The translations under genes were made by a program, and so were the position numbers. A stretch of 64,000 nt of DNA from Thermoleophilum album (GTDB taxonomy: Bacteria > Actinomycetota > Thermoleophilia > Solirubrobacterales > Thermoleophilaceae), in the NCBI RefSeq assembly GCF_900108055.1, contig NZ_FNWJ01000002.1, positions 630,382 to 694,381 on the forward strand, read 5' to 3'. Each line of letters opens with the position of its first letter. The stretch's first letter is position 1. Under the pieces are notes generated by a model. That model ran no database searches and was not told the DNA's origin. It worked only from the letters and a program-made list of their open reading frames with translations. Shown in pieces: positions 28,145 to 46,314 of this stretch.

Positions 28145-28261
28145 GGCGTTGCCCCGACGGCGGCGCCGCCGGACGCGCACAACCCACAGTTAGCCGGTCG
28201 CGCGCCCGCCCTGGTCGGGTGCCGCGTGAGCGTACTGCCGCCGCGACTAGGCTGCTCCGCC

Positions 28262-30106: not shown

Positions 30107-30173
30107 CGCCCGCAGGGCCTCCCCCGCGCTCGCTCGCAGGGGTCCGCCGCGCTCGCGCTCGTGCTCGGGCGCT

Positions 30174-31772
30174 TTAGCTCGCGAGCGGCTCCTTCATCGC
30201 CTCGGTCTCGGGCGCGCGGATATACGGCTGCTCCTCGTCCTGGGACTGCTCCTCGTGGTACACGGACTCCGCGTTGACCGCCCAGATGTCGTGGTCGGTC
30301 CCTTGCACGAGGTTCTCGACCGCACGCATCGCCGTCAGCATCGAGTGGTCGGAGTTGTTGTAACGGTGGAGACCGTTGCGCCCAACCTGCACCAGGTTCT
30401 CGATGCCCTCGAGCCACGCCCGGATCGTCGCGACCCGCTCCGCGTAATCCTGGTCGTACATCGGGTAGGCCTTCGGCACGCGCACTACGAAGCCGAACTG
30501 GAGCTTGTCGCGGGTCGCAAGACCGAGCTGCTCGAGCTCGCCCATCGCCATTTGAACGAGATCGTCGTCGTCCATCGACCACAGCTCGTCGCCCGCGAAG
30601 CAGAAGTACTCGAGCCCCACGCACGCTTTCGTGGGATCGGGGACCATCCACGGGCTCCAGGACCGGTAGTTCTGGATGCGGCCGACCTTGACGTGCGGGT
30701 CGTGGATGTAAATCCAGTTGTCCGGGAACAGGTCTTCGCCGTCGAGGACCAGAGCGACGGTCAGGAAGTCGCGGTAACGGAGGCCCTTCGCGGCTGCCCG
30801 GACCTCACCCGGAGCTGGCGGATCGACGATCCCCACGAGGTTGCGCAGGGGCAACGAGGAAATCACCTGTGACGGCTCGAACACCTCGCCGCCGGCGTGG
30901 ATGCGGACGACACGGTTGCCCTTGAGCTCGATCTTCGTGACCTTGTGGTTCAGCAGAACCTTGCCGCCGAGCTTCTCGATGTCATCGGTCATCGTTTCCC
31001 ACATCTGCCCGGGGCCATAGCGTGGGTAGTGGAACTCGGAGATCAAGGACTTGACCTTGTTGCCTTTGTTGCCGAAGAAGGCAGACTTGGCCGCGCTGAA
31101 GAACGACAAACCCTTGATTCGCTGCGCTGCCCACTCGGAGCGGATCTCCGAGGTCGATACTCCCCACACCTTCTCCGTGTAGGACTTGAAGAACTGGTTG
31201 AAGAGCCAGCGTCCGAAGCGGTTGGAGACCCACTGCTCGAAGGTCTCCTCCTTGCCCTTCGGCTTGATCGTCGCCCACAGGTAAGAGAGGAGGGCTTTCG
31301 TCAGATCAACCGGGCCTAGCTTGCGAATCACGTCGGGCCCACGCAGCGGGTAGTCGAGGAACTTCGTGCGGCCGCGGCCATCACGCCAGTAGATGCGCGA
31401 CATACGCGGACGCAAGAGGAACTCTTCGCGCATGATCTCGTGCCAAAGCTCGTCGACCTCGCGCACCTTGGTGAAGAAGCGGTGGCCGCCGAGATCGAAG
31501 CGATAGCCGTCGCGGACGACGGTCTTGGCAATGCCACCCACCTGGTCCTCGGCCTCGAGCACCACCACCGGCAGGCTCTGCTTCGCCAGGAGATAGCCGG
31601 CGGTGAGGCCCGCCGGACCCGCGCCGAGCACGAGCGTCGGCTTCTCAAGCATCTCGGGGTGCGCGAGGTTGGCTGGCGGCGGCAGCTTCACCAGCTCCTT
31701 CTTCGGCTTCGGAGCGGGCACGTGGCGCCCGCGGGCGTCGTCGTTGCCTGTAGGCATGTTCTCGTTGGCCAT
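30174..31772 (-). CDS. FAD-dependent oxidoreductase, UDP-galactopyranose mutase-like
   Basis: A 532-residue flavoprotein. After 44 Pro/Lys-rich residues comes the Rossmann FAD motif VLGAGPAGLTAGYLLAK (about 48-64), then VVVLEAEDQVGGIAKTV, FDLGGHRFFTKVREVDELW and the C-terminal FAD contact VGRNGLHRYNNSDHSMLTAM. This resembles the amine-oxidase/UGM group often found in glycan clusters, where they act on sugar nucleotides or lipid-linked sugars. The ATG at 31772 has GGAG ten bases upstream and lies five bases after the neighbouring stop; a GTG at 31781 is the alternative. Confidence 0.8.
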   Translation of the reverse strand: MANENMPTGNDDARGRHVPAPKPKKELVKLPPPANLAHPEMLEKPTLVLGAGPAGLTAGYLLAKQSLPVVVLEAEDQVGGIAKTVVRDGYRFDLGGHRFFTKVREVDELWHEIMREEFLLRPRMSRIYWRDGRGRTKFLDYPLRGPDVIRKLGPVDLTKALLSYLWATIKPKGKEETFEQWVSNRFGRWLFNQFFKSYTEKVWGVSTSEIRSEWAAQRIKGLSFFSAAKSAFFGNKGNKVKSLISEFHYPRYGPGQMWETMTDDIEKLGGKVLLNHKVTKIELKGNRVVRIHAGGEVFEPSQVISSLPLRNLVGIVDPPAPGEVRAAAKGLRYRDFLTVALVLDGEDLFPDNWIYIHDPHVKVGRIQNYRSWSPWMVPDPTKACVGLEYFCFAGDELWSMDDDDLVQMAMGELEQLGLATRDKLQFGFVVRVPKAYPMYDQDYAERVATIRAWLEGIENLVQVGRNGLHRYNNSDHSMLTAMRAVENLVQGTDHDIWAVNAESVYHEEQSQDEEQPYIRAPETEAMKEPLAS

Positions 31773-31777
31773 CGCTG

Positions 31778-33370
31778 TCACGCTCCGGTCTTCTCGTAGA
31801 GCACGGCTCGCACCCCGATCCTCGTTGCCCGGCGGTAGAAAGGCGGCAGGGTAGCCACCCGCCGGAACCGCCGGTCACCGGCGAGCGCCGCCCCCCACTG
31901 AGCGGCGCGCCGGCGCACGAGCGCGGTCCACGGTGCGTCCCAGTCGTCGCGGCGCGCGGTTATCGGGTGCACTAGCAGCACCCTCGCGCGGGGCGGAAGG
32001 GTAGCAAGCAGGGGCTCGAGGTTCCGAGCGACGGTGGCGCGCTCGATGCGCTCCTGAGAGTCGCGCCAGTCCATCACGTGCGGGTTGCGCACCGGCCCGA
32101 GCGGCGTCGCGTAACGCAAGCCGCGAACGCCGCGCAGGGTTTCGAGGTGGTAGGCAAGCAAGGGCGTCTGCTCTGGCTGCAAAGAGATCACGAGGTCGCC
32201 TCGATGCAACAGCGGGGCGGCCGCCTGCGCCAGGTCAGCGGCGTTGCTCTTGTTCTGCAAGTCGTAGAGGCGCGGGAGGCTCCAGATGGCCAGGACGATC
32301 AGAAGCGCCGCGATACCCAGGCGCCCGGCCCGCGCCAAGCCGGCAGCGAAGATCAAAAGCAGCGGACCCAGCGAAGCGCCGAGGTAGCGCGTCGTCCAGG
32401 CCGGCGAGACCTGCGAAAACAGCCACGCCGAGCCGAGCATTGCGACCACCACGAGCGCGGCGGCGATGATCGCGCGCCGCCGCGGGTCCAAGCGAGCCTC
32501 CTGCAAAAAGCGCGCGAGCCCTGACCCGCCCGCGAGAACCAGCGCACAGGTTGCGGTGCCGCCACCCAAGAGGTACTTGGAGATCTGCACCGGCGCACCG
32601 AGCCGCGGCGGGTTCAGCCAGGGAGCGCCAGTGTGTTGGACCTGAAAGAGCAGCGTCGGCAGCCAGGGCAGGTAGAGAAGCCCAGCACCCCCGAAGGCGA
32701 TCAATCCATCGCGAAACAGCGCACGCCGCTCGCTGCCGCCGGCGGTGAGCAACAGCCAGGCGAGAGCGGTGACCAGGCCAATCGAGACGAATAGCGCCCA
32801 GTTGTGGGTGTACAGCGTCGCCGCGAGAAGCGGCAAAAGCGCGGCCAGGTAACGGCGCCGCCGCATCACGAAGACGTTGAGGAACGCCGCCGTGACCGCC
32901 AGCGACAGCGTGAACATCAGCGAGTACATGCGCACTTCTTGCGCGTAGGTCGTGAGGAACGGGTTGACCGCGCACATCGCGGCCAGGTAGATGCCGGCAC
33001 GGCGACCGAAGAGGCTCCAGCCGGCCCACAGGCCGACAGGAATCGCGGCGAGCGCGATCAGCACTGAGAGGGCCTGGGTCTCGGCCGGGCCGTCGCCGAC
33101 CAGCCGCAGCCAAACGCCGAGCAGCAGGTAGTAGAGCGGCGGCGAGCCGTCCTGGCGCAGGACCTCCGGAATTTCGGTTAGCGGCTGCGAGGCGATACCG
33201 ATCGAAAGCCCCTCGTCCATCCAGAGGGAAGCTCCGAGCGCGCGGGTGCGCAAAAACCACGAGACGGCCACCGCGGCGAGCACGAAAAGAGCGAGCAGAA
33301 ACCGCTCGTCCAGGCGCGCAAAGAGACGTAGGCCGCGCGCGGTCTCAGCCTTTGTCGGCGCTACCGCCAC
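31778..33370 (-). CDS. GT-C type membrane glycosyltransferase
   Basis: A 530-residue multi-pass protein. The first loop has LGASLWMDEGLSIGIASQPL, with Asp52-Glu53 as the likely catalytic pair. About ten hydrophobic helices follow to residue 340, then a soluble domain of about 170 residues with DLVISLQPEQTPLLAYHLETL. It fits PMT/ArnT-like enzymes. I set the start at GTG 33370, which overlaps the neighbouring stop by ten bases; the much longer open frame (to 34804) is a shadow of the other transferase. Confidence 0.8.
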   Translation of the reverse strand: MAVAPTKAETARGLRLFARLDERFLLALFVLAAVAVSWFLRTRALGASLWMDEGLSIGIASQPLTEIPEVLRQDGSPPLYYLLLGVWLRLVGDGPAETQALSVLIALAAIPVGLWAGWSLFGRRAGIYLAAMCAVNPFLTTYAQEVRMYSLMFTLSLAVTAAFLNVFVMRRRRYLAALLPLLAATLYTHNWALFVSIGLVTALAWLLLTAGGSERRALFRDGLIAFGGAGLLYLPWLPTLLFQVQHTGAPWLNPPRLGAPVQISKYLLGGGTATCALVLAGGSGLARFLQEARLDPRRRAIIAAALVVVAMLGSAWLFSQVSPAWTTRYLGASLGPLLLIFAAGLARAGRLGIAALLIVLAIWSLPRLYDLQNKSNAADLAQAAAPLLHRGDLVISLQPEQTPLLAYHLETLRGVRGLRYATPLGPVRNPHVMDWRDSQERIERATVARNLEPLLATLPPRARVLLVHPITARRDDWDAPWTALVRRRAAQWGAALAGDRRFRRVATLPPFYRRATRIGVRAVLYEKTGA

Positions 33371-35238
33371 GCGCGCAGCGTAGTGGTCGCGAACGTCGGC
33401 AGGTGCCGTGACGGAGGCGCGGAGCTCTGCGCCCGTCGCACGAACGGCAGGCCCTCGGGCGGTGGCGGCGCGGTCGGCTGGCCCGGCTTGCGGGGACAGC
33501 TCTGCCGACCGGGACGCTGGCCGCTCGGGGGCACCGTCCAGAGCCGCCAGACACCGACCCGCAACACCTCGCGGAAGCGGGGATCGCGGGGAATCCCGAC
33601 GAGCGGACCATCCGGCACCGTCCGGGTTCGGAAGAGCACGCCCGGGGGCGGCGTCCCCGGCCAGCCGACGTCGCGTCCGTGCAGGCCGAGCTCGTAGGCG
33701 ACCATCTGCGTCTGGAAGGGACCCGAGAAGACGCCTCCACAGGCAAGCAGGCGCTGGCGTCCGCCGGCGCGGTCGATCAGTCGTTTGAGATCCGACCACA
33801 GCCGCGCCTCGTAGCGCAGGCGCTCGCCGACCTTGCGGACGTTGTCGGCCTTCGCGATCACCACCGGTGTCAACAGCAGCGAACCGAGCAGGATCGTCAG
33901 GAGACCGACCGCTGTTGCCAAGCGCGGCGAGCGACGAGCGGCGAACGACATCGCGAGCGCGACCAGCCGTCCCGCCCCCACTCCCGCGAGCACGCAAAGC
34001 GCGACTGTCGCACCGACCAGGTAGCGCTGGTTGCCCGCGTAGCCGCGCTCGGCCATGAACGCCACGAGCGCGAACCACGCCGCGCCGATCAGCGCCAGCG
34101 CCAGCACGATGCGGTGCCGTAGTGCGGAAAGCTCCGCTGGGCTCGTTTCCGCGCTGGCGTCGTCCTTCGGGCGCGTTTCCGGGGCGCCGGCGGACAGACC
34201 ACCGCCCGATGCCCGCCCCCGCTCGCTGCGCCGCAGCAGCGCCAACGACGACCAAGCAACGGCGATTGCCGCCGCCAGCGGCAGCACATGCACGGTGCGG
34301 TGCCAAGTGCGGCGAGCGAGCTCTAGCGCGGGGTGCTCGGCGAAGGCGACGCTGCCCGGATTCGGGTTGGTCGCCCGCTCCGAAGCCCGCAACGGCTCCC
34401 CGGAGCCCCACCACTCGGGGAGGATCCAGAGCGCCGGAACGAGCAGCCCGAGCAGCACTAAACGAAGGCGCAGGCGGGGTTCGCGCAGCCACAGGTAGAT
34501 GCCGTAAAGACCGAGAAACGGCCAGACCTCGGGTCGCAGCAGCGCTGCCGCGACACCGAGATAGAGCGCGTGATCGCGGCGCCCATCGAGGTGGCGCTCG
34601 AAGGCCCAGAGGAGGAGGCCGGCGAGCAGCGGCTCGGAGTTGCCGAGCGCGGCGTCGCGAGCGAAGTTGTAGCTCGTCGCAAGCGCAGCAGCCGCGAGCG
34701 CGCCGGCGACGAAACCGGCCAACCCGGACCCGGTCAAACGGCGCGCCAAACGCCACGCCATCAAGCACGCGAAGATCCCTCCCGCGCGCGCGATCCACAG
34801 CCACAGATAGGGCGCGAAGTCGTGTCCGAAAGCGGCAAAAACGGTGGTGAACAAGACCGGCAGCGGCTTCCAGGAAGGCCCGCCGGTCGTCACTAGGTCG
34901 AGGTGCAGGATCTCACGACCCCACAGGATCCAGGCCCACGGGTCGTAAGTCGGCGTCGAGGGAAAGACGAACGTGGCGGCCGACGCGGCCAGCGAAAAAG
35001 CCAGCACCAGGGGCATCGGCAACGGTTGGTGGCGTCGCAAGCGGCGCAGCGAGGCGCGCGCGAGCGCCCCCGCCCCGCCGCGTCCCCCAGCTTCGGACCC
35101 TGCTCGGGGAGTTGAACGCGGAGCTGTCCCGCCGCGCGCGTCGGTCGACCCGGCTGACGCCCCGGCGGTCGACCCCGCTGACGCCCCGGCCTCCCGCGCG
35201 TCGGCTTTCGCAAGCTCTGGCGAGCGCTGCGGACCCAT
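33361..35238 (-). CDS. GT-C type membrane glycosyltransferase with disordered N-terminus
   Basis: A 625-residue multi-pass protein. Residues 1-70 are Ala/Gly/Ser/Arg-rich and carry an eight-residue repeat. Helices begin at about 75. The first loop has PTYDPWAWILWGREILHLD, with Asp99 as probable base. Further helices run to about 475, then a soluble domain with ACGGVFSGPFQTQMVAYELG. A low-complexity insertion lies at about 315-345. It overlaps the next transferase, so the two are likely made together. Substrate unknown. Confidence 0.75.
   Translation of the reverse strand: MGPQRSPELAKADAREAGASAGSTAGASAGSTDARGGTAPRSTPRAGSEAGGRGGAGALARASLRRLRRHQPLPMPLVLAFSLAASAATFVFPSTPTYDPWAWILWGREILHLDLVTTGGPSWKPLPVLFTTVFAAFGHDFAPYLWLWIARAGGIFACLMAWRLARRLTGSGLAGFVAGALAAAALATSYNFARDAALGNSEPLLAGLLLWAFERHLDGRRDHALYLGVAAALLRPEVWPFLGLYGIYLWLREPRLRLRLVLLGLLVPALWILPEWWGSGEPLRASERATNPNPGSVAFAEHPALELARRTWHRTVHVLPLAAAIAVAWSSLALLRRSERGRASGGGLSAGAPETRPKDDASAETSPAELSALRHRIVLALALIGAAWFALVAFMAERGYAGNQRYLVGATVALCVLAGVGAGRLVALAMSFAARRSPRLATAVGLLTILLGSLLLTPVVIAKADNVRKVGERLRYEARLWSDLKRLIDRAGGRQRLLACGGVFSGPFQTQMVAYELGLHGRDVGWPGTPPPGVLFRTRTVPDGPLVGIPRDPRFREVLRVGVWRLWTVPPSGQRPGRQSCPRKPGQPTAPPPPEGLPFVRRAQSSAPPSRHLPTFATTTLRAWR
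35142..35189. repeat. 24-base tandem repeat in the glycosyltransferase N-terminus
   Basis: Two copies (35142-35165 and 35166-35189) differ at one base. They encode the eight-residue repeats of the disordered N-terminal segment (AGSTAGAS-like) of the membrane glycosyltransferase. Confidence 0.7.
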
Positions 35239-35253
35239 CGGCCCCGGTCGGCG

Positions 35254-36213
35254 CTAAGCCTTCGAAGCCTCGACGCGCAACGCCGAGCGCATCGCGGCCC
35301 AGCCGCCGTAGCGGGCGATCAGAACGCCCAGACCGACGAGCGTGATCGGGACGAACAACACAAATCGCAGCAGCACCAGGTAGCTGAGCGCAAGCGAAGA
35401 CGCCGCCCCAACTGCCTTGATCCCGAACAGCACGGCGGCGTCGAAGGTGCCAACGTACCCAGGTGCCGCCGGAAGCATCGCGAAGAGGTTGGTGATCGCG
35501 ACGATGTAGAGCGCGTCGATCGGATTGATTTCGATGCCGACGGCCCGCGCGACCGCGAAGTAGACGCTGGCCTCGAGCGACCAGATCACGATCGAACCGG
35601 CCAGCGGCAGGATCCCGCGTCGACCGAGCAACGCGCGCGGCGCTTGCGCGAGCGGGCGAACGAGCTGGCGCAGGCGCGCCAACGCGGGATGGCTGCGCAA
35701 CAGCTGGAGCAGCGCCACTGCGAGGGCCAGCACGAGCGCCCCGCCGGCGGCGACCAGCAAGGGCCGCTCACTGGGCAGGCCGGCGCCGTGCAGCAGGCCG
35801 TAGGCCACGACCACGAGGATCAGCCCCAGAGCCGCGGCGTCCAACACGCGCTCGGAGACAACGGTGCCGAGGAGCTGCCGCTTGCCGGCCTGAGAACGGC
35901 GCGAGAGCAGAACGACCCGCAGCATCTCGCCCGCGCGAGCGGGCAAAACGTTGTTGCCCATGTACCCGACGACCGTCAGCGCGTAGACGTCGCGCGCCGG
36001 CGCCCGCAGCCCGGCGACAGCGATGATGCGCCGCCAACGCTCCGCCCGCAAAAGCGTCGCCAAGGCGTAAACGCCGAGCGCCCCCACGAGCCACGCCAGC
36101 GCACCCGAGGAGTGCGGGATTTGAGGAGCGTCCTGACGCGACGCCCACCACACGACGGCGGCCAGAGCGACCGCCGAAACCGCGACCTGGAGTGCAGCAA
36201 AACGCCTGTTCAT
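35254..36213 (-). CDS. LPG_synthase_TM / UPF0104-family membrane protein
   Basis: A 319-residue integral membrane protein with about eight helices, of the family that includes the membrane half of MprF (a lipid flippase) and AglD. Marks: ALATLLRAERWRRII, GYMGNNVLPARAGEMLRVVLL, LLGTVVSERVLDAAALG, and FAMLPAAPGYVGTFDAAVLFGI. Such proteins next to GT-C enzymes are often thought to move lipid-linked sugars. There is no lysyl-transferase domain. The start is ATG at 36213; it is probably first in a four-gene minus-strand operon with two transferases and the FAD enzyme. Confidence 0.85.
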   Translation of the reverse strand: MNRRFAALQVAVSAVALAAVVWWASRQDAPQIPHSSGALAWLVGALGVYALATLLRAERWRRIIAVAGLRAPARDVYALTVVGYMGNNVLPARAGEMLRVVLLSRRSQAGKRQLLGTVVSERVLDAAALGLILVVVAYGLLHGAGLPSERPLLVAAGGALVLALAVALLQLLRSHPALARLRQLVRPLAQAPRALLGRRGILPLAGSIVIWSLEASVYFAVARAVGIEINPIDALYIVAITNLFAMLPAAPGYVGTFDAAVLFGIKAVGAASSLALSYLVLLRFVLFVPITLVGLGVLIARYGGWAAMRSALRVEASKA

Positions 36214-36366: not shown

Positions 36367-38712
36367 GTGGCTAAGTCGGCCCGTCGGCAAACTGCTGCGA
36401 GCGCGCCCATCCGCGCGCGCTCAACACGATCTGCGCACGCTCGCAACGAGCTGTGCCGTCGATCCCTGCGACCGCTCGCGAACCGCGCGCTCACCGTAGC
36501 CCTGGCGCTGGGCTCGCTGGCGTCGGTGGCCGCTGTCGGAGGCGAGCGACCAGCGGCGGCGGTCGCGGCCGCTCATCGCGTCGCAACCTCCCCCACGCCC
36601 CGAGCGCTCCCCACGCCTACCGGCAGCGCAAGCCGCTGGGGCCGGGCCGACGCTTCCCAGTACTCGATCGACGCGCGGCGCGCCAGCACTACCGCTCAGG
36701 CTCCCGACGAAGGCGAGGGGACGGGCGGCGGCGCCGCACCGACACCGACCCCGTCCTGCCAACCGGTTCCGTTGCCGCCCCAACCGGTCGCGCCGGCGCC
36801 GCCGCTCGTAGTTGACGCGCCGCGCCCAGGTGTGCCCGAACGCGAAGGGCCGAGCGGGCGTCTGCTGTTGGGTGGCGTCTGGTACTTCCAGCTCGACGAA
36901 GAGCGCACCGGCGAGCAGCGGGAGCTGCCGACCGTGAGCGACCTGACTGGTTGGCGGCAGGTGGCGGTGCCCTACGTCTGGAACGGCGACGACACGACCC
37001 GCAACCGCGCCGCTTGGGGCTGGTATCGCAAGGAGTTCCGGTTGCCCGAACCGCCTGCTGGCGCGCCTCGGCCAACGCTCTGGCGTTTGCGCTTCTTGGG
37101 GGTGAAGGAGCGGGCCACGGTGTGGCTCAACGGTCGCCTGATCGGCCAGCACTCGGGCGGCTACACGCCCTTCGAGCTCGACGCCCAGGGATTGCGGACG
37201 CGAGGTGTCAACCGCCTCGTGGTGCGCGCCTCGACGATGCGCGGGCCTTATGACCTCTCGCACTGGCGTTTCGAGTCGCGCGCTTGTCGCTATGGACGAG
37301 GCGGCTGGTGGAACTTCGGGGGTATCGACCGCGAAGTCGAGATCCGCCCGGTCTACGGCGTCGATCTCGAGCGAGCGCAGGCGCTACCGCGTTTGCGTTG
37401 CCCGCGCTGCCCCGCGCGACTGGAGCTGCGTGCCCTGCTGCGCAACGCCAGCCGCAAACCACTGGCGGTGACGCTGCACGCGCGTGTGCGTGCGCCTGAC
37501 GGGCGGCACGTGATCAACGAAGTGATCGCTCGTCGCCGTCTAGCAGCCGGGGAACGAGCGTGGGTAGAGGGTTCGGTCGTGCTCGGTCGGGCGATGCTCT
37601 GGGAGCCCGCGCGTCCGGCTCTCTACGACGTTTCGCTGACCGCGCTCGGCGCGCCCGTCGTGACGACCGCGCGGGGCAGGGCGCAACTGCGACGGACAGC
37701 GGAAGCGACCAGCGCGACCGCCCGGGCGAACTACCACCTGAACGTCGGCGTGCGCCTGCTCGAAACGCGACCGGGCGGGATCCTGCTGCTAAACGGGCGG
37801 CCGCTCTCGGCGCTCGGCGTGAGCTTCCACGAGGATGACCCGCGCCTCGGTTCGGCTCTCGGGGCCCGCGAGCGAGGTTGGCTTGTGAGGCGGCTGCGCG
37901 ATCTCGGGGCCACGATAACCCGCTCGCACTATCCCCCGCACCCCGCGTTGCTAGAAGCGTTCGACCGCGCGGGGATCCTCTATTGGGCGCAGCCACCCGT
38001 CTACCAACTGAGCAACGGTGCCCTCAACGAGGCCTGGGTGCGACGCGACGCGCTCGAAGCGGTACGCCAGATGGTCGAGGCGCAGATCAACCACCCGTCG
38101 GTGGTGGTCTGGTCGCTCGGCAACGAGCTGGCCCTCGGTGACGGGCGCTACGCGGGCGGCGTCGGTGCCGGCTACGAACGCTACGTGGAGGCTGGCGTGC
38201 AGCTCGTGCGCTCGCTCGATCCGACGCGGCTCGTCGGCATCGACCGGGCCGCCCCGGAAGACCCAACGCGCGTCTGGCATCCGGTGTTCGACCTTCTCGA
38301 CGTGCTCGGCGTAAACGAGTATTTCGGCTGGTACCGCGGCCGCGACAGCGCCGCCGGGGCGATTCTCGACCAGTTCCACAAGGCCTACCCCGACCGGCCG
38401 ATCGTCGTCACCGAGTTCGGCGCCGAGTCCACGCACGAAGGGCCCGCCGACCGCAAAGGGACCTACGCCTTCCAAACGCGCTACCTCCTCGACCACCTCG
38501 CCCAGTTTGAGCGTCGGCGTTGGATCGCCGGCTCCCTGGTGTGGATCCTGCGCGACTTCCGGGTCAATCCGGACTGGACGGGTGGCAACCCGAACCAGCC
38601 GACGCCGCCGTGGAACAACAAGGGCCTGATCGACGAAACCGGGGCGCCGAAGCCAGCGTACTGGGAGCTGCGCAAACTCTTCCGGGCGCGCCGCGGCGCG
38701 GCGAGGGGCTAG
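36367..38712 (+). CDS. Secreted glycoside hydrolase family 2 enzyme
   Basis: A 781-residue GH2-type enzyme (beta-galactosidase/glucuronidase/mannosidase group). A hydrophobic signal segment is at about 41-60, with an unusually long basic lead before it (RRSLRP is a weak Tat-like motif). A Pro/Thr/Ala-rich linker runs from about 65 to 155. The sandwich domain has WRQVAVPYVWNGDDTTRNRAAWGWY and WLNGRLIGQHSGGYTPFEL. The TIM barrel has the acid/base in WSLGNELALG (Glu587) and the nucleophile in VTEFGAES (Glu683). Substrate not readable. GTG at 36367 is the only start visible, and the signal peptide may lie further in. Confidence 0.85.
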   Translation: MAKSARRQTAASAPIRARSTRSAHARNELCRRSLRPLANRALTVALALGSLASVAAVGGERPAAAVAAAHRVATSPTPRALPTPTGSASRWGRADASQYSIDARRASTTAQAPDEGEGTGGGAAPTPTPSCQPVPLPPQPVAPAPPLVVDAPRPGVPEREGPSGRLLLGGVWYFQLDEERTGEQRELPTVSDLTGWRQVAVPYVWNGDDTTRNRAAWGWYRKEFRLPEPPAGAPRPTLWRLRFLGVKERATVWLNGRLIGQHSGGYTPFELDAQGLRTRGVNRLVVRASTMRGPYDLSHWRFESRACRYGRGGWWNFGGIDREVEIRPVYGVDLERAQALPRLRCPRCPARLELRALLRNASRKPLAVTLHARVRAPDGRHVINEVIARRRLAAGERAWVEGSVVLGRAMLWEPARPALYDVSLTALGAPVVTTARGRAQLRRTAEATSATARANYHLNVGVRLLETRPGGILLLNGRPLSALGVSFHEDDPRLGSALGARERGWLVRRLRDLGATITRSHYPPHPALLEAFDRAGILYWAQPPVYQLSNGALNEAWVRRDALEAVRQMVEAQINHPSVVVWSLGNELALGDGRYAGGVGAGYERYVEAGVQLVRSLDPTRLVGIDRAAPEDPTRVWHPVFDLLDVLGVNEYFGWYRGRDSAAGAILDQFHKAYPDRPIVVTEFGAESTHEGPADRKGTYAFQTRYLLDHLAQFERRRWIAGSLVWILRDFRVNPDWTGGNPNQPTPPWNNKGLIDETGAPKPAYWELRKLFRARRGAARG

Positions 38713-39150: not shown

Positions 39151-41337
39151 CTACGGCGCTTTGCCGATCAGCGCGAGCGTAGTGCGAGCCCCGAAGCGCC
39201 GCACCTCGTAGATCGCGACGTCGTTGCGCCCCCGCCGGAATACCCACCAGGGCACGACGATCGAGAAGTTTTCGCCCTGGTCACGGACCAGATGGAAGGT
39301 GCGACCGACCCCCACGATCGTGCCGTTCACTGCGACCGCGACGTCGCGCGTCGCGCCGCGCGGCGACCCGGTCACCGTTCCCGTGACCCACACCGGGACC
39401 GTCGACGAGCGGGGGTCGACGTTGCGGTACTCGGCCCGCTCGACGAACCGCGCACCGAGACCGGCAGCCCGCACGCTGGCGAAGGCGCTCACCGGCTTAC
39501 GCAGAAGGTCTTTGTTCGGTCCGATCTCGAAGAACCGCCAGGGACCATCCGCACCCTCTCCGAACAGCGCAAGCTTGCGCCGGAGCAGCGCTTGCTTGCG
39601 CTGCTGCCATTCGCGCGCCGAGAAAACGAGCGGCCGGAACGTCCCTCGCTCGAATATGCGCACCCGTCGTCGCCGCCGCACCACAGCGCTGCCGGCCGGG
39701 TGGCCGTCCATCTTCACACGCGGGTCGACACCGAGGGTGCGCAGGATCGTCGGCAAGATGTCGACCGTCTCGACGTAGGAATCGTCGATCCGTCCACGGC
39801 GTTGGAACGGCGCCTTGAGGATGAAGGGGATCGCGCCGACCGCCTCGGCGTTGCGTCGTGTCAAGCGCCTGCGGTCGTACACGCCGACGTCGAAAGCCAC
39901 CCCGTGGTCGGCGGCGATCGCGATCAATGCTTTGTCGTAAAGGCCGCTTTGCTTGAGGTGGCGGATTAGCCGACCGAGAAGGTAGTCGGCGAACCCCACC
40001 TGCAGAAGGTGCCGCTGCCAGAGCACGGCGACTTGCCCGGGGTCGCGGTAGGAGTAGCGGTTGATCCCCGGAATCGGGTCGCTAGCGACGCGGCGGTACT
40101 GCTGACCGGTGGGCAAGTACTGCCAGGGAACGTGCGGCAGCAGCGTGTGCTTGAAGTTGAGTGACGGCCGCACACTCGGCCGGATGCGCGCTACCCAGGT
40201 GAGAAACCGGTGGTTGCGATTGCCGTTGAGGTTGGCGCGCGTGTTAGGGCGCTCCCCAGCCGCAGCCGCCGCCGCAGACACGCGCTCGGACTCCTCTGCT
40301 TCGTCGTCACTGCCGCCGAAGTTCCCCCAGGTCTGCGAGACCGATGGCAGTCGCTCCTCGATCCCCTCGGGGGCAACCACGTGCGCCCACACCAGTGAGA
40401 GGTCGTCGACCATCGAGCGCACCCGCGCGGCGAACGCCTGGCTCGTACGTTCGTCTTTGCACAGCGAGGTCGGACAGACGCTGGTGGCCTCCTCGGAGAC
40501 GTTCATCGAGTAGCTGCGCCCGAGCAGCGTGAAGATGCTGTGGGGGTGGTCGGACGCCGTCGGCAAGCGGTCCCGTCGCGGATAGTTGCCGTCCATGATC
40601 GCCGGCTGGGCCCGCTCGGTCGAGTCGTACACGGTGTAGGCATTGCGGTACCAAGTGCCGTCGGCGGCGAGCGCCGCGAAGTTCGGGTAGCGACGGGCAT
40701 CGATCTGTCCCCGCGAGTCGAGCAGCGAAACGACCGGGAACTCGTCGAACAGCACAACCACCACCGGCGCGCGCGGCACCCCGCCAATCGCGCGCGCACT
40801 AGCCTCGCTCGGGAAGACCAGCTTCGAAACCGGTGAAAACAGCAGGAGCAAGGCCAGGAACAAGACCGGAGCGATCGCAAGCGCCGAGACGAACGATCGC
40901 GCGACCGAGATGCGGGCGTACAGCGCAGCCACGGCCAAGCCGACAGCGATCGCCAGCGCCAGGTGTGCGCCGATGCCGAGCTCGAAGAGCCGCTTGAGCG
41001 TCGGCGAGACGATCAGCGCCACAAGCCCGGCGACGAACAGCAGATGGAGGATGCGCGCGGCCGACTGCGACGCCAGGGCCACGAGCCCTTCGACCACGAC
41101 CAGCGCGAGCGGCGGCACCAGTACCCAGCCGACAGCGAAAACGACGATGTCGACGGGGGCCGAACCGCGAGCAGCGAAGAACTCCGGGTTTTTGCGCAGC
41201 AGGTCAAAGAGGGGCTCAGCAAAGGCGAGCGAGGAGAGCGCCAGCAGGTGCAGGAACGCAAAGCCGAGCTGGCGGATACCGCCCGCCTCCGGCGCCCACG
41301 TGGGTGCCGTTGCCGACCGCGCAGCGACCTGACTCAT
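39151..41337 (-). CDS. Membrane sulfatase-fold hydrolase/transferase
   Basis: A 728-residue protein with about five helices in residues 20-165 followed by an external alkaline-phosphatase-superfamily domain. Metal and catalytic marks: VVVVLFDEFPVVSLLD, YDSTERAQPAIMDGNYP (Thr as possible nucleophile), LPHVPWQYLP, IAIAADHGVAF (Asp-His metal pair) and DSYVETVDILPTIL. The C-terminal 170 residues form a beta-rich tail. This is the layout of enzymes like lipoteichoic acid synthase and EptA, but which group it moves is not known. It begins in an ATGA overlap with the methyltransferase gene. Confidence 0.8.
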   Translation of the reverse strand: MSQVAARSATAPTWAPEAGGIRQLGFAFLHLLALSSLAFAEPLFDLLRKNPEFFAARGSAPVDIVVFAVGWVLVPPLALVVVEGLVALASQSAARILHLLFVAGLVALIVSPTLKRLFELGIGAHLALAIAVGLAVAALYARISVARSFVSALAIAPVLFLALLLLFSPVSKLVFPSEASARAIGGVPRAPVVVVLFDEFPVVSLLDSRGQIDARRYPNFAALAADGTWYRNAYTVYDSTERAQPAIMDGNYPRRDRLPTASDHPHSIFTLLGRSYSMNVSEEATSVCPTSLCKDERTSQAFAARVRSMVDDLSLVWAHVVAPEGIEERLPSVSQTWGNFGGSDDEAEESERVSAAAAAAGERPNTRANLNGNRNHRFLTWVARIRPSVRPSLNFKHTLLPHVPWQYLPTGQQYRRVASDPIPGINRYSYRDPGQVAVLWQRHLLQVGFADYLLGRLIRHLKQSGLYDKALIAIAADHGVAFDVGVYDRRRLTRRNAEAVGAIPFILKAPFQRRGRIDDSYVETVDILPTILRTLGVDPRVKMDGHPAGSAVVRRRRRVRIFERGTFRPLVFSAREWQQRKQALLRRKLALFGEGADGPWRFFEIGPNKDLLRKPVSAFASVRAAGLGARFVERAEYRNVDPRSSTVPVWVTGTVTGSPRGATRDVAVAVNGTIVGVGRTFHLVRDQGENFSIVVPWWVFRRGRNDVAIYEVRRFGARTTLALIGKAP

Positions 41338-42848
41338 CCGTCGCTATCCGCCGAGCTCGCTATCAGACGCGTCGCCTCGGCTCCCGCGCCGCGGGGCCGC
41401 GCCGCGTACAGCACGCGCGTTCCCGACGGCAGTTCGAGGCGACGGTCGACCTCGAAGAACTCGCCGAGCTCGCGCTCGAAGCGCTCCAGCTGGTAGTCCG
41501 GGTGTAGGCCCTCGCGCTTGCCGGAGAGCAGTTTGCGCACCATCGGATCATCGCGGGTCGGGAACTCGATCACGAGCTCACCACCCAGCGACCACAGCCA
41601 GCCAAGGAACTCGCGAACCGGCACGTTGGCGGTGATCGCCACGTGGTGGATGAGCGCCAGCGCGAGCACAAGGTCTGGACGACCGCGCTCCCAGAGCGGC
41701 TTGCGCTCGGCCCCCCGCCAGCCGAGCCCCGGCGAGGGGTCGGCGAGGTTCACGACCAGCGGCAGGATGCGTTCTTCCCCTTCCTCGCGCAGGTCGCGGT
41801 AGAGCAGCTCCACCGGCCCCTGGTCGGCGTCGAGCGCGACCACGTAATCGGCGTGGCGCGCCGCGATCCGCGCGTAGCGACCGTTGTTGCAGCCGAGATC
41901 CCAGACCAGTCGCCGGCGACGAGCGCCCGCGGCTTCCTCCACGAAGCGCTCCTTGAGCTGCGTGTCTTCGTCGGTGTAGGTGTTCCGCTCGCCGTAAGCG
42001 ACCCAAACGCCCCGCGGCGGCTGCCAGCGCAAGCGCTCGACGAGACGCTGCATCTTGCGGACGTTGGCCTCGAGCAGGCGTCGTTGCAGCTCGCGGTCCT
42101 GCAACTGCCGGTTGAGGCTCGACCGGATCTCGCCGGCTCGATCGGCGTAGCGCGCCTGCAGCCGTGCGTGCAGCGTCACGTGCGTGAAGACGCCGCGACG
42201 CAAGCGGTCGCGCAGCGGCAACAGCGACCGCATGTGCAAGGGATCGATGCCGTCGATCGCGCCGCGCAACAGAGGCTGGTAGGGAACGCGGCGCAGCGCT
42301 TGCAGGAGCAACGGGTAGAGGAAGAGCATGCAGAATTGGCGGTAGGCGGTCCAAGTCTCGCCCGGACGCAAACGCTCGAACGAGCCGACGTCCACGAAGG
42401 TCGGCCGCGACCCCACGAACTGCACGTTGTAAGGCGAGGCGTCCTTCAGCGTCAGCCCCTCGGCGAGCGCCTCCTGCAAAAGCCCGAGCTGCAGCAGCGC
42501 AGCGTCCTTGAGCATCGAAAACGGCCACTCGTAGGGGTACGAGACGAACGGCACACGCTCATGGCGCAGCACCGCCGCGGGCTCCTTCACCAGTGGTAAG
42601 TCGAGGGACCGCCAGTCGTCGACCCGCTCGGTGCGTACGACACGGCCGTCCTCCTGCGTTCGCGCGAAAAGACGCGTGCTCGCAAAGGCGTTGAAGTCCT
42701 CCAGGCCCTCGCGACTCAACACGCGCAGCACCTCCCCCGCCGCGTAGAACACGCGGCTCTCCGGATCGCGGAAGGAACCCGCGTCGAGGCGCGCGTCGAG
42801 GGCCTGCGGCGAGCGCGCGCCGTCGCCGCGCGGCGAAACCGGCTCCAC
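41334..42848 (-). CDS. Kinase-like / SAM methyltransferase fusion protein
   Basis: A 504-residue two-part protein. The N-terminal half (about 40-245) holds LKDASPYNVQFVGSRPTFVDVGSFE, which resembles the kinase loop DxxxxN followed by a metal-binding DxG. Between the halves is a charged helical stretch (about 225-275). The C-terminal half (about 290-480) has the SAM motif LVWDLGCNNGRYARIAARHADYVVALDAD in pieces and LALALIHHVAITANVP. Whether the kinase half is active is inferred. E. coli WbdD, which caps O-antigen, joins the same activities in the reverse order. It starts four bases after the small membrane protein's stop. Confidence 0.75.
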   Translation of the reverse strand: MEPVSPRGDGARSPQALDARLDAGSFRDPESRVFYAAGEVLRVLSREGLEDFNAFASTRLFARTQEDGRVVRTERVDDWRSLDLPLVKEPAAVLRHERVPFVSYPYEWPFSMLKDAALLQLGLLQEALAEGLTLKDASPYNVQFVGSRPTFVDVGSFERLRPGETWTAYRQFCMLFLYPLLLQALRRVPYQPLLRGAIDGIDPLHMRSLLPLRDRLRRGVFTHVTLHARLQARYADRAGEIRSSLNRQLQDRELQRRLLEANVRKMQRLVERLRWQPPRGVWVAYGERNTYTDEDTQLKERFVEEAAGARRRRLVWDLGCNNGRYARIAARHADYVVALDADQGPVELLYRDLREEGEERILPLVVNLADPSPGLGWRGAERKPLWERGRPDLVLALALIHHVAITANVPVREFLGWLWSLGGELVIEFPTRDDPMVRKLLSGKREGLHPDYQLERFERELGEFFEVDRRLELPSGTRVLYAARPRGAGAEATRLIASSADSDG

Positions 42849-42852
42849 TACC

Positions 42853-43044
42853 TCAGCCGGCGTCGGCGCCGCCCTGCGCTTCCTTGCCAGCGCTCGTCTC
42901 GTCGGGCTTGCGAATGCGTAGGAGGACGAGCAGGCGGTGCCAGTACATGCGGATCGTGACCGCTACGGCGGCGAGACCGCCGGCGATGATCGTGAGGATC
43001 TGCCCTCCGCTCGACGGGTCGATGTATGCGATCAGCTCTTTCAT
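42853..43044 (-). CDS. Tiny membrane protein with an IDPSSGG motif
   Basis: A 63-residue protein MKELIAYIDPSSGGQILTII, one transmembrane helix (about 16-35), a basic stop-transfer stretch, and an acidic tail. I recall similar proteins carrying IDPGTGS-type motifs in other bacteria near sulfatase-like and glycan genes, but know no established function. The ATG at 43044 has GGAG seven bases upstream. It is first in a three-gene coupled operon with the methyltransferase fusion and the sulfatase-fold enzyme, which suggests it acts with them. Confidence 0.8.
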   Translation of the reverse strand: MKELIAYIDPSSGGQILTIIAGGLAAVAVTIRMYWHRLLVLLRIRKPDETSAGKEAQGGADAG

Positions 43045-43193: not shown

Positions 43194-44285
43194 ATGAAGC
43201 TGATCATCCAAATCCCCTGTTACAACGAGGAGTCGACGCTGCCGCTCACGCTGCGCGAGCTGCCGCGCAGCGTCCCCGGCTTCGACCGTGTCGAGTGGCT
43301 GGTGATCGACGACGGCTCGACCGACCGCACGGTCGAAGTGGCGCGCCAGCACGGCGTGGATCACATCGTCCGTCTCACTAAGAACAAGGGTCTCGCGATG
43401 GCCTTCCAAGCGGGGCTCGACGCCTGCCTCAAGCTCGGCGCCGACGTGATCGTCAACACCGACGCCGACAACCAGTACTGCGCGGCCGACATCCCGCGCC
43501 TCGTCGAACCGATCCTGCGCGGCGAGGCGGACATGGTGATCGGCGATCGGCGAGTCGACTCGATCGAGCACTTCTCCCCTCTCAAGAAACGCCTGCAGCG
43601 GCTCGGCAGTGCGGTCGTGCGGCGCGCGTCCGGCACCCAAATTCCCGACACCACCTCGGGCTTCCGGGCCTACAACCGTGAGGCAGCGCTGCAGGTACAG
43701 GTCGTCTCGCGCTTCACCTACACCCTCGAGACGATCATCCAAGCGGGCAAGATGGCGATCGCCGTCGACCACGTCCCGATCCGCACCAATCCGAAGACCC
43801 GCGAGTCGCGCCTGTTTCCATCGATGTGGGCGTACGTGCGCCGCAGCGCGGCCGCGATCCTCCGCGTTTACACGCTGTACGAGCCGCTGCGTGTGTTCCT
43901 GATCGCGGCGGGCGCGGTGGCGTTGCTGGCGCTCGTGATCTGGGGGCGGTTCCTCTACTTCTTCGCGATCGGCGAGGGCAAGGGGCACATCCAATCGCTG
44001 ATCCTGGGAGCGACGCTTTTCGTCGTGGCGACCCAGCTCGCCGCCCTGGGCGTGATCGGCGACGTGCTGGCCGGCATGCGCGTGCTCCAGCAGCGGACAC
44101 TCGAGCGTGTGCGACGGGTGGAGCTGGCGCTAGGCGTTCCTCCCTCCCACTACGAGCCAGGCGGGCGGTGGCCGCACAAAGACGCACCGGCCACCGCCAG
44201 CGAGGCCGGCGCAGAAGATCCACCACCGGCCGTTCCCGGTGACCCCGCCCACCAGTCGCAAGCAGCGGCCGGGAGGGGCCGTTGA
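43194..44285 (+). CDS. GT2-family glycosyltransferase (DPM1/GtrB-like)
   Basis: A 363-residue transferase that probably loads a sugar onto polyprenyl phosphate. It begins MKLIIQIPCYNEESTLPLTL, has LVIDDGSTDRTVEVA and NKGLAMAFQAGL, the metal-binding VNTDADNQY (D-x-D), and two helices at about 240-260 and 275-305. The membrane-bound C-terminus supports a polyprenyl donor role, and such a product could feed the GT-C enzymes 10 kb away. It overlaps the next methyltransferase as TTGA. Confidence 0.9.
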   Translation: MKLIIQIPCYNEESTLPLTLRELPRSVPGFDRVEWLVIDDGSTDRTVEVARQHGVDHIVRLTKNKGLAMAFQAGLDACLKLGADVIVNTDADNQYCAADIPRLVEPILRGEADMVIGDRRVDSIEHFSPLKKRLQRLGSAVVRRASGTQIPDTTSGFRAYNREAALQVQVVSRFTYTLETIIQAGKMAIAVDHVPIRTNPKTRESRLFPSMWAYVRRSAAAILRVYTLYEPLRVFLIAAGAVALLALVIWGRFLYFFAIGEGKGHIQSLILGATLFVVATQLAALGVIGDVLAGMRVLQQRTLERVRRVELALGVPPSHYEPGGRWPHKDAPATASEAGAEDPPPAVPGDPAHQSQAAAGRGR

Positions 44286-44932
44286 GGGAGACGCAGACGC
44301 ACCTGTCTGGGCGGTCGTCTGGGCTCTCGGCGAGCGACGTCCCCACCGGCAACACCTTCGACAAGTACGGCTCACGCAACCCGCTCGTACGACGTCTCGT
44401 GAGCGCCTTCGAACGCGACCTCGACGAGTTGCTCAGGCGCGCGGACCCGCAGAGCCTGGTCGACGTCGGCTGCGGTGAAGGCATCCTCAGCGAGCGGATC
44501 GCGCGACGCTTCGGCTGCCCGGTCGTGGGACTCGACCTCGACGACCCCAAGCTGCGCGAGCACTGGCGCCAGCGCAGCGCTCCCCGCCTGGAGTTCGTAG
44601 CCGGCGACGGCCATGAGCTGCCGTTCGCCGACGACAGCTTCGACTGTGCCGCGGCGATCGAGGTCCTAGAACACGTTCCCGACCCCCGCAAGACGCTCGC
44701 CGAAATGCGGCGAGTGGCCCGCCGCTACATCGTCTGCTCGGTTCCGCGGGAGCCGCTGTGGCGGATCCTCAACATGATGCGTGGCGCCTACCTTCGTGAG
44801 CTCGGCAACACGCCGGGCCACATCAACCACTGGAGCAAGCGCAGCTTCATCGCCCTGCTTTCGAGGTATGGCACGGTCGAGGAGGTGCGTACGCCGCTGC
44901 CGTGGACGATGGCGCTCGTGCGCATCGGTTGA
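44282..44932 (+). CDS. Class I SAM-dependent methyltransferase
   Basis: A 216-residue Methyltransf_11-type enzyme. SAM motif LVDVGCGEGILSERIARRFG (about 60-79) is followed by VVGLDLDDPKL, the strand motif FAGDGHELPFADDSFDCA (with V for F), and EVLEHVPDPRKTLAEMRRVA. The start is TTG at 44282, in a TTGA overlap with the upstream GT2 gene. Its substrate is likely a lipid or glycan intermediate, inferred from context. Confidence 0.85.
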   Translation: MRETQTHLSGRSSGLSASDVPTGNTFDKYGSRNPLVRRLVSAFERDLDELLRRADPQSLVDVGCGEGILSERIARRFGCPVVGLDLDDPKLREHWRQRSAPRLEFVAGDGHELPFADDSFDCAAAIEVLEHVPDPRKTLAEMRRVARRYIVCSVPREPLWRILNMMRGAYLRELGNTPGHINHWSKRSFIALLSRYGTVEEVRTPLPWTMALVRIG

Positions 44933-46314
44933 GCTCCCGGCGGCTCGCCGCGCGAGCCCGTGTCAGCCGCGGCTACGGGCGCGGCGCCGCGGTGCTGTCG
45001 ATCGGTATCGGCACCACCGGGCTCGTCACTTTCGGCTACTTCGCGCTCGCCAGTCACGCGCTCTCAGCGACCGACTACGGCGGCATCGCTCTGCTCTGGT
45101 CGGTCGTCTTCGTCACCGCTTCGGTGATCTGGCGGCCGGTCGAGCAGTTCCTCTCGCGCTCGATCGCCGACTGTGACGCGCGGGGGGTATCACCCCGCCC
45201 CTATCTCGCCTCAGCGGGAGCGATCCAAGTCGCTCTTGCCGGGCTCTTCGTAGCGGTCGCACTGCTTTTGCGCGGACCACTCGAGGAGGGACTGTTCGGG
45301 GATCGCGAGACGCTGTACTGGATCCTCCTGGCGACCGTAGTGGCGTACGCCGCCAGCTACTTCGCGCGCGGGTTCCTAGCTGGCCACGGCCGTTTCGGCC
45401 TCTACGGTGGGCTGGTCCTCTTGGAGGCCACCTCGCGCTGCGCCTTCGCGCTTGCCGCGGTTTCCGGCGTGACCCACGGGCAGACGGCGGTCGCGCTCGG
45501 AATGGTCGCGGCACCGCTCGTTTCCCTCGCCGTGGTGCCTTGGGGCATCCGCCGTGTCGAAGCGCCGGCCATAACGCCCCCGGCAGCGCGACCGGCCGAG
45601 GGTGTGGCAGCGGGGCTGCGTAGTGGCACCGGCTTCGCCGGCGCGCTGGTCGTGATCATGGCCTGCGAACAGACCTTCCTCAACGCCGGGCCGTTGCTCG
45701 TCAAGCTGCGCGACGGGGCAACCGGGGCGGCGCTCGCCGGCCAAGCCTTCAACGTGCTGTTGATCGCCCGTGCCCCGCTGCAGCTCTTCCAAGCGATCCA
45801 GACTTCGATCCTGCCCCACCTCACCCGCTTGCGCGCGCACGGCGAGCGCGAATCTTTCGCCCGCAGCGTCGCTGCCACGATTGCGCTGATCGGCGCTTTC
45901 GCAGCGGCCGTCGCCAGCGCCATGGCGGTCGCCGGGCCGCAGCTCATGGCGCTGGTCTTCGGCGGCGACTACGAACGCCTGCCGCTGGTCGTGATGGCTG
46001 TCGGGATGGGGATCTACCTGGCGGCCGCCACGCTCAACCAGGCGGTGCTCGCGGCCGGCCGCGCAGCGTCGGCAGCCGCCTGCTGGCTCGCGGCGCTCGC
46101 CCTCTTCACTCTCGCGCTCGTGGCTCCGCTGGTCGACGACCGCATCCTCCACGTGACGATCGCCTACACGCTCGGCGCGCTGGCGCTAATGGTGCTCTTG
46201 GCGCGACTGGCACGCGCCAGCGCAGCGTCCCCCGATCAGCAAGCGCCGACCGCCTCAGATCGGCTGCAACATCGAGTGCCCGCAGGAGGGGCAAGCGACG
46301 TTGGCGGTCGCTGA
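44929..46314 (+). CDS. Polysaccharide flippase (MOP/Wzx-like)
   Basis: A 461-residue protein of about twelve to fourteen transmembrane helices. Motifs include GTTGLVTFGYFALASHALSA near the start, FLSRSIADCDARG, GFLAGHGRFGLYGGLVLLE and FNVLLIARAPLQLFQAIQTS. The family moves lipid-linked oligosaccharide across the membrane. The TTG at 44929 overlaps the upstream stop as TTGA. The 3' end overlaps the zinc-ribbon gene by 60 bases on the opposite strand. Confidence 0.85.
   Translation: MSSRRLAARARVSRGYGRGAAVLSIGIGTTGLVTFGYFALASHALSATDYGGIALLWSVVFVTASVIWRPVEQFLSRSIADCDARGVSPRPYLASAGAIQVALAGLFVAVALLLRGPLEEGLFGDRETLYWILLATVVAYAASYFARGFLAGHGRFGLYGGLVLLEATSRCAFALAAVSGVTHGQTAVALGMVAAPLVSLAVVPWGIRRVEAPAITPPAARPAEGVAAGLRSGTGFAGALVVIMACEQTFLNAGPLLVKLRDGATGAALAGQAFNVLLIARAPLQLFQAIQTSILPHLTRLRAHGERESFARSVAATIALIGAFAAAVASAMAVAGPQLMALVFGGDYERLPLVVMAVGMGIYLAAATLNQAVLAAGRAASAAACWLAALALFTLALVAPLVDDRILHVTIAYTLGALALMVLLARLARASAASPDQQAPTASDRLQHRVPAGGASDVGGR

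Follow-up and report, generated by a model that had tools for sequence, protein, structure and literature searches.

RESULTS

A conserved gene trio in Thermoleophilum album

The DNA analyzed here, called the window below, is a 64,000-nucleotide (nt) stretch of the Thermoleophilum album genome (contig NZ_FNWJ01000002.1, positions 630,382 to 694,381), which contains a trio of genes for a small membrane protein, a fusion of a kinase-like domain with a methyltransferase, and a membrane enzyme with an alkaline-phosphatase/sulfatase fold. The listing of open reading frames (ORFs) showed that the three genes are arranged head-to-tail, all on the minus strand, to which the coordinates of the trio and of the features within it refer. 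The first gene (42853..43044, ATG start) encodes a protein of 63 amino acids (aa), for which the ORF, the family alignment, and helix prediction indicated a YIDPSSGG motif, a single membrane helix at about residues 16–34, and a basic tail. The second gene (41334..42848, GTG start) encodes a 504-aa NoeA-family fusion, in which the kinase-like domain is followed by a class I S-adenosylmethionine (SAM) methyltransferase, and the third gene (39151..41337, ATG start) encodes the 728-aa NoeB-like membrane enzyme. The small gene is separated from the fusion gene by 4 nt (42849–42852), while the fusion and NoeB-like genes overlap by ATGA (41334–41337), so that the tight packing described in an initial annotation of the sequence is correct by the ORF coordinates. 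The fusion is present as a single copy in the 2.2-Mb host genome, for which the nearest named relative found was bacterium HR41, with the fusion proteins being 84% identical.

A total of 57 loci in other genomes encode relatives of the fusion, and hence the three ORFs are not a product of chance. The small gene was located directly upstream of the fusion gene on the same strand at 51 of these loci, and a sulfatase-fold gene adjoined the fusion gene on the same strand at 46 of them; several exceptions to these counts were loci cut by contig ends. At three loci (L016, L021, and L053) the sulfatase-fold gene was nearby on the opposite strand.

When compared with plasmid sequences by tblastn, the fusion matched Sinorhizobium meliloti noeA (E about 5e-48), the two being 33% identical along 91% of the query. 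The NoeA family, also designated Lani_1194, has been described in a survey of Legionella kinases as a kinase-like domain with active-site Asp, Asn, and Asp residues, and with Arg replacing the usual kinase Lys, joined to a class I methyltransferase (PMC9758233). The conserved neighbors reported for this family were Lani_1193, in 65% of 816 neighborhoods, and Lani_1195/NoeB, which has the alkaline-phosphatase (AP) fold, in 38% of them (PMC9758233). The window fusion has the same domain order, the same invariant kinase-like and methyltransferase residues, and the same neighbors, including the AP-fold NoeB-like gene, which is found in the window as well as at the 46 loci counted above, while it differs in that it comes from a Thermoleophilia actinobacterium and lies outside any nod operon. 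The gene order suggests that Lani_1193 could correspond to the small protein. With near certainty, the trio is a NoeA–NoeB module with a constant small membrane partner. Hence, the trio reported in the initial annotation is real, but its family is not new: NoeA/Lani_1194 has already been published (PMC9758233), and the window copy adds an actinobacterial member to it.

The fusion and the small protein are inherited together

The distribution of the fusion was surveyed in 299 genomes of the class, and the first 99 of them were used to compare the occurrence of the three genes. The data showed that the fusion and the small protein were present in the identical 10 of the 99 genomes and in no others. 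The long subfamily of the sulfatase-fold protein was detected in eight of these ten genomes, the other two of which encoded a NoeB-like protein of the short form next to the fusion, and it was not detected in any of the 89 other genomes. The Fisher P values, which do not include a correction for relatedness, were 6e-14 for the fusion and the small protein, and 3e-10 for the fusion and the long sulfatase-fold form; the ten positive genomes span five families. The two genomes in which the linkage is broken kept all the parts. In one of them (G035) the small gene is beside the sulfatase gene and the fusion is on another contig, and in the other one (G091) it is the small gene that lies on a separate contig.

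The trio was also found in loci from Actinomycetota, Binatia, Acidobacteriota, Pseudomonadota, and Bacteroidota, sometimes with a changed order. The order small–fusion–sulfatase was observed in Actinomycetota, Binatia, and Bacteroidota, while the order sulfatase–small–fusion was observed in Chloroflexota and Gammaproteobacteria. The recurrence of the trio at the 57 loci, in the 99 class genomes, and on rhizobial plasmids is consistent with the expectation, raised from the sequence of the window, that the three genes would be found together elsewhere. The distribution is patchy, as the full fusion was detected in about 30 of the 299 genomes, which could be taken to mean that three unrelated envelope genes became adjacent by chance. 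This explanation is extremely improbable, and it was rejected as contradicted by the co-occurrence data, since the trio persists across several phyla with a changed gene order, and the fusion and the small protein occur together exactly.

The methyltransferase half has a WbdD-type site

The AlphaFold model of the fusion was of high quality, with a predicted local distance difference test (pLDDT) of 88 and a predicted template modeling score (pTM) of 0.89. The methyltransferase domain (residues 276–488; 41385..42023) contains the SAM-binding motif D317LGxNxG323, the key positions of which are invariant, and its closest structural match in Foldseek and VIA searches was NodS (Z 14.3, root-mean-square deviation [rmsd] 2.7, 180 residues aligned). 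For comparison by sequence, a methyltransferase profile that included S. meliloti NoeA was searched against 177,635 distinct PDB sequences. The top four matches were all WbdD, with E values from 3.7e-5 to 5.3e-5, and the next one was Trm5b at 8.8e-4.

In the profile alignment, the family-invariant His-His pair H401–H402 (41643..41648) is aligned with H132–H133 of WbdD, which form part of its phosphate site. This pair was identical in 49 of 49 aligned sequences, and it was present in 83 of 83 family members. Among other methyltransferases, used as a weak control with eight usable ORFs, one had His-His. Y285 and R478 are also invariant in the window family, together with H401 and H402, and they stand where WbdD has Y16 and R203. 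The spacing from Tyr to His is 116 residues in the window family and in WbdD alike, and that from His to Arg is 76 versus 70 residues. It has been shown that WbdD mutants of Y16, H132, H133, and R203 kept phosphorylation and lost methylation, and the role of H132 and H133 at the phosphate site has been described in the same study (PMC3482155). The chance that the fusion methylates a phosphate is about even.

WbdD, the chain terminator of the E. coli O9a antigen, which phosphorylates and methylates the terminal sugar of the chain, likewise fuses kinase-like and class I methyltransferase parts, and among PDB sequences it comes closest to the methyltransferase half of the window protein. The proposal of the initial annotation that the fusion has WbdD-like activities in the reverse order agrees with the observed joining of a kinase-like part to a methyltransferase with a WbdD-type site. 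In WbdD, the methyltransferase comes first and the kinase second, followed by a long coiled coil, whereas the window fusion has the reversed order and is without the long C-terminal coiled coil. The kinase halves of the two proteins are not detectably related by sequence, and their neighboring genes differ. The assignment of the fusion as a WbdD was rejected because the domain order is reversed.

The kinase-like half retains the catalytic residues

The N-terminal part of the fusion (residues 18–275; 42024..42797) comprises the kinase-like domain and a helical linker. Its loop, which has the form LKD136xxxxN141 ... D153, contains the catalytic segment K135-D136-xxxx-N141 (42426..42446) and D153, the equivalent of the DFG Asp (42390..42392). 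K135, D136, N141, and D153 are identical in 52 of 52 aligned relatives, as is R42, and R42, D136, N141, and D153 are kept in S. meliloti NoeA too, so that the catalytic Asp and Asn residues noticed in the window are conserved throughout. D136, N141, and D153 match D166, N171, and D184 of PKA, while R42 stands for K72. In the model, this half shows three strands and a helix, next two strands, a long helix, and a further strand leading to the catalytic loop, and then two strands, D153, and another long helix, which is the order that would be expected for a protein kinase. The suggestion that this half could have a kinase fold was in this respect consistent with the predicted strand and helix order, but no solved kinase was matched, as it was only the methyltransferase half that the structure searches covered; the whole-model searches with Foldseek and VIA returned methyltransferases, which filled the list, and so the absence of kinases from it is uninformative. 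The predicted assignment of the N-terminal half as a kinase is based on the published analysis of relatives (PMC9758233), the topology of the model, and the conserved residues. A Pfam match of residues 245–274 to the DMPK coiled coil was set aside, as its E value of 0.09 was below the threshold.

The small membrane protein and its rhizobial counterpart

In the alignment of the small protein family, Y7, D9, and P10 are invariant, which defines a Y-x-D-P motif. In Gram-negative relatives, a signal peptide ends with A-x-A right before this motif, as judged by reading the cleavage site by eye, and an example is the S. meliloti protein (...VPAHA|YLDPGTGS). In the relatives, the motif is followed by one membrane helix and then by a basic tail. 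The window protein is without a signal peptide. Because the signal peptide of the relatives ends directly before Y-x-D-P, the motif is probably located outside and the basic tail inside. It had been supposed that the IDPSSGG peptide may hold the complex at the membrane. This stretch corresponds to the mature outer N-terminus of the relatives, so it probably does not hold a cytoplasmic enzyme, and the basic C-terminal tail is probably the better candidate for holding the fusion.

In S. meliloti, the genes are arranged in the order nodL, an unnamed small ORF with DPGTGS, noeA, and noeB. The ORF between nodL and noeA was found on S. meliloti and Rhizobium plasmids, where it is annotated as an unnamed hypothetical protein, and it was present in 61 rhizobial plasmid records, which equals the number of rhizobial records with noeA. 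This ORF of the nod box n5 operon (L060:7718-7966 in S. meliloti 1021 pSymA, L131:2751-2966, and L132:3748-3963) encodes a protein with a signal peptide and one helix, and it overlaps the start of noeA, while the published name of the operon (nodL, noeA, noeB) omits it. A literature search for a DPGSGS or DPGTGS protein returned only string matches in papers on other subjects, as judged by title and abstract.

The NoeB-like enzyme has a predicted Thr nucleophile

The 728-aa protein matched the Pfam Sulfatase family with an E value of 2.4e-14. In its model (pLDDT 85), five membrane helices precede an alkaline-phosphatase/sulfatase domain, which is followed by a C-terminal beta domain at about residues 600–727, and the location of the helices in the N-terminal region (residues 19–165; 40843..41283) was defined by the model secondary structure and by hydropathy. 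The number of helices and the invariant Cys pair C288/C293 agree with the outward orientation that had been proposed for this enzyme, and we infer its sidedness from these two features.

In alignment columns, the predicted nucleophile T240 (40618..40620) is Thr in 22 and Ser in 3 of 25 relatives, within the motif T/S-x-x-A-x-P; neither Cys nor the signature Arg was present at this site. This holds for both the long and the short subfamilies, including S. meliloti NoeB. The identity of a formylglycine sulfatase was rejected, as the C/S-x-P/A-x-R signature was not found and Cys never occupies the nucleophile position. The fold and the membrane helices of the initially annotated sulfatase-fold enzyme were borne out, but it is unlikely to be a sulfatase. 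D477–H478 (39904..39909) form the metal-ligand pair of the fold. T240 together with D198, D477, H478, and two further conserved His residues presumably constitutes a phosphate-ester site, such as that of LtaS and the Ept enzymes. Because the nucleophile is Thr or Ser and never Cys, the enzyme is predicted from its sequence to act on phosphate esters, and it is unlikely to act on sulfate.

In structure searches, sulfatases as well as YejM/PbgA, LtaP, and EptC were matched with Z values of 24 to 27. YejM/PbgA, LtaS/LtaP, and EptC (Z 24 to 26) share with the window protein the arrangement of membrane helices before an outward AP-superfamily domain, and LtaP and EptC are phosphotransferases, while the whole-chain superposition on PbgA was poor (rmsd 13). 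The membrane helices, the Thr nucleophile, and the Asp and His metal ligands are those of AP-superfamily phosphotransferases and phosphodiesterases of the LtaS/Ept type. NoeB/Lani_1195 shares the N-terminal membrane helices, the AP-superfamily domain, the Thr nucleophile, and the location next to NoeA; NoeB of S. meliloti has 553 aa, whereas the window protein belongs to the longer subfamily with the C-terminal beta domain. Among genomes, the long and the short subfamily stand in for each other.

Two further NoeB-like proteins are encoded in the T. album genome without an adjoining fusion gene. One of them (L128:6760-8907) belongs to a group of surface-polysaccharide genes and adjoins genes for UDP-glucose dehydrogenase, a nucleotidyltransferase, an LCP-family polymer ligase, and acyltransferases, and the other one (L129:6077-7678) is a profile match without the membrane-helix region. 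At four loci (L028, L034, L043, and L055) the sulfatase-fold gene is repeated upstream of the fusion, with up to four copies or fragments at L028, and in some of these loci the small gene is repeated as well. The loci with repeated copies suggest that one fusion may work with several outward enzymes.

The genomic context points to a glycan

The module is flanked by divergently oriented genes on the plus strand (43194..46314), outside the module itself, which encode a glycosyltransferase of family 2 (GT2) of the polyprenyl-phosphate-sugar type, a SAM methyltransferase, both assigned by Pfam, and a 470-aa multi-helix membrane protein. The GT2 gene also adjoins the module at five other loci (L001, L002, L005, L006, and L046), and the gene for the 470-aa protein at two of them (L005 and L046). 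The 470-aa protein (44902–46314) had no Pfam or NCBIfam match, and its sequence pattern looks like that of a candidate Wzx/MurJ-type flippase. The families seen most often among 120 neighboring ORFs, taken from about 30 loci, were the GT2 and GT4 glycosyltransferases. Because of these GT2 and GT4 neighbors, the context of the paralog at L128, and the association with nodL, noeA, and noeB, the module likely acts on a surface or secreted glycan. The gene neighborhood points toward the proposed glycan substrate and a possible capping of its chain.

Two further regions of the window are of note. The region 27482–36213 is an envelope-type group with a PMT-like glycosyltransferase, an amine oxidase, a flippase-like LPG-synthase-TM protein, and a 1008-aa ORF without a family match, the C-terminal half of which is like a membrane glycosyltransferase. 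At 36367–38712, convergent with the module, lies a gene of glycoside hydrolase family 2 (beta-glucuronidase/galactosidase-like), the product of which apparently has an export region at its N-terminus.

In another explanation, the target of AMPylation or phosphorylation by the kinase-like half is a protein, such as NoeB or the small protein, and the module serves regulation at the membrane instead of glycan modification. This could be consistent with the small membrane partner having an invariant motif, with the constant pairing of the fusion and the small gene, and with the treatment of Legionella relatives as possible effectors (PMC9758233). On the other hand, the neighborhoods are rich in glycosyltransferases, the methyltransferase half most closely resembles an enzyme that methylates a glycan phosphate, and the host-range role in nodulation is exerted alongside the Nod-factor acetylase gene nodL (PMC9758233, PMC9048898), which makes a regulatory system quite improbable.

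DISCUSSION

The data could be explained by phosphorylation and phosphate methylation of a membrane-associated glycan, coupled by the small protein to phosphodiester chemistry on the outer side, and we consider the prospects of this explanation to be evenly balanced. At the cytoplasmic face, the kinase-like half would phosphorylate a hydroxyl group of a lipid-linked or nascent glycan, and the WbdD-type methyltransferase half would then methylate that phosphate, yielding a sugar-phosphate-methyl group. The small protein, with its Y-x-D-P motif outside and its basic tail inside, may link the fusion to the outward NoeB-like enzyme. Once the glycan has been exported, this enzyme could use its Thr nucleophile and metal ions to cleave a phosphate ester on it or to transfer one.

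Several observations weigh against this explanation. The profile of the N-terminal half had no match in the PDB, and its members searched singly against Pfam gave nothing beyond one RIO1 match at E 0.068. The hhalign comparison with nine aminoglycoside-kinase relatives, which was of little power, was empty. The structure search covered the methyltransferase half alone. The typical kinase Lys is Arg in the fusion and the ion-pair Glu was not identified, which was also the case in the published analysis (PMC9758233). The equivalence of Y285 and R478 to the WbdD residues is positional and not derived from a residue-level alignment, and His or Tyr pairs at the His-His site are also found in NodS and RebM, which do not act on phosphate (PMC3482155). 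The window cluster is not a complete polysaccharide locus, and no product is known for any family member.

Some of these observations would fit a scheme in which the fusion methylates a sugar hydroxyl, an amine, or a carboxylate, while the kinase-like half is a glycan-binding or regulatory pseudokinase, and NoeB acts independently, attaching or removing a head group that contains phosphate. The replaced Lys, the failure to identify an ion-pair Glu, and the lack of a kinase sequence match would be compatible with a pseudokinase, and NodS, the closest methyltransferase structure, is an N-methyltransferase of Nod factors. The invariance of D136, N141, and D153 across 52 relatives would, on the other hand, be unusual for a pseudokinase, and we regard this scheme as rather unlikely.

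What this study adds is the WbdD-type site of the methyltransferase half, the finding that the small protein is inherited exactly with the fusion, and the Thr at the nucleophile position of the NoeB-like enzyme; the probable outward position of the invariant Y-x-D-P of the small protein is also new. The genes noeA and noeB have been known since 1995 as Medicago host-range genes of alfalfa bacteria, and the literature searched reported no biochemical activity for either of them. The site, the co-inheritance, and the nucleophile make the role of noeA and noeB testable. Given the correspondence of residues with WbdD, one definite reaction can be tested for a kinase-like methyltransferase of obscure role. 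The co-inheritance adds a third, unnamed protein, which was overlooked in the S. meliloti operon of nod box n5. As a tentative extension, the trio may be a general, multi-phylum system that places a methylated phosphate onto an exported glycan, the phosphodiester of which is then acted on outside, with the small protein as an obligate transmembrane coupler and with the Nod factor or another surface glycan as the rhizobial target. If this were true, methyl-phosphate decoration of glycans would be far commoner than the few O-antigens in which it is known, and a rhizobial glycan target would account for the host-range role of noeA and noeB.

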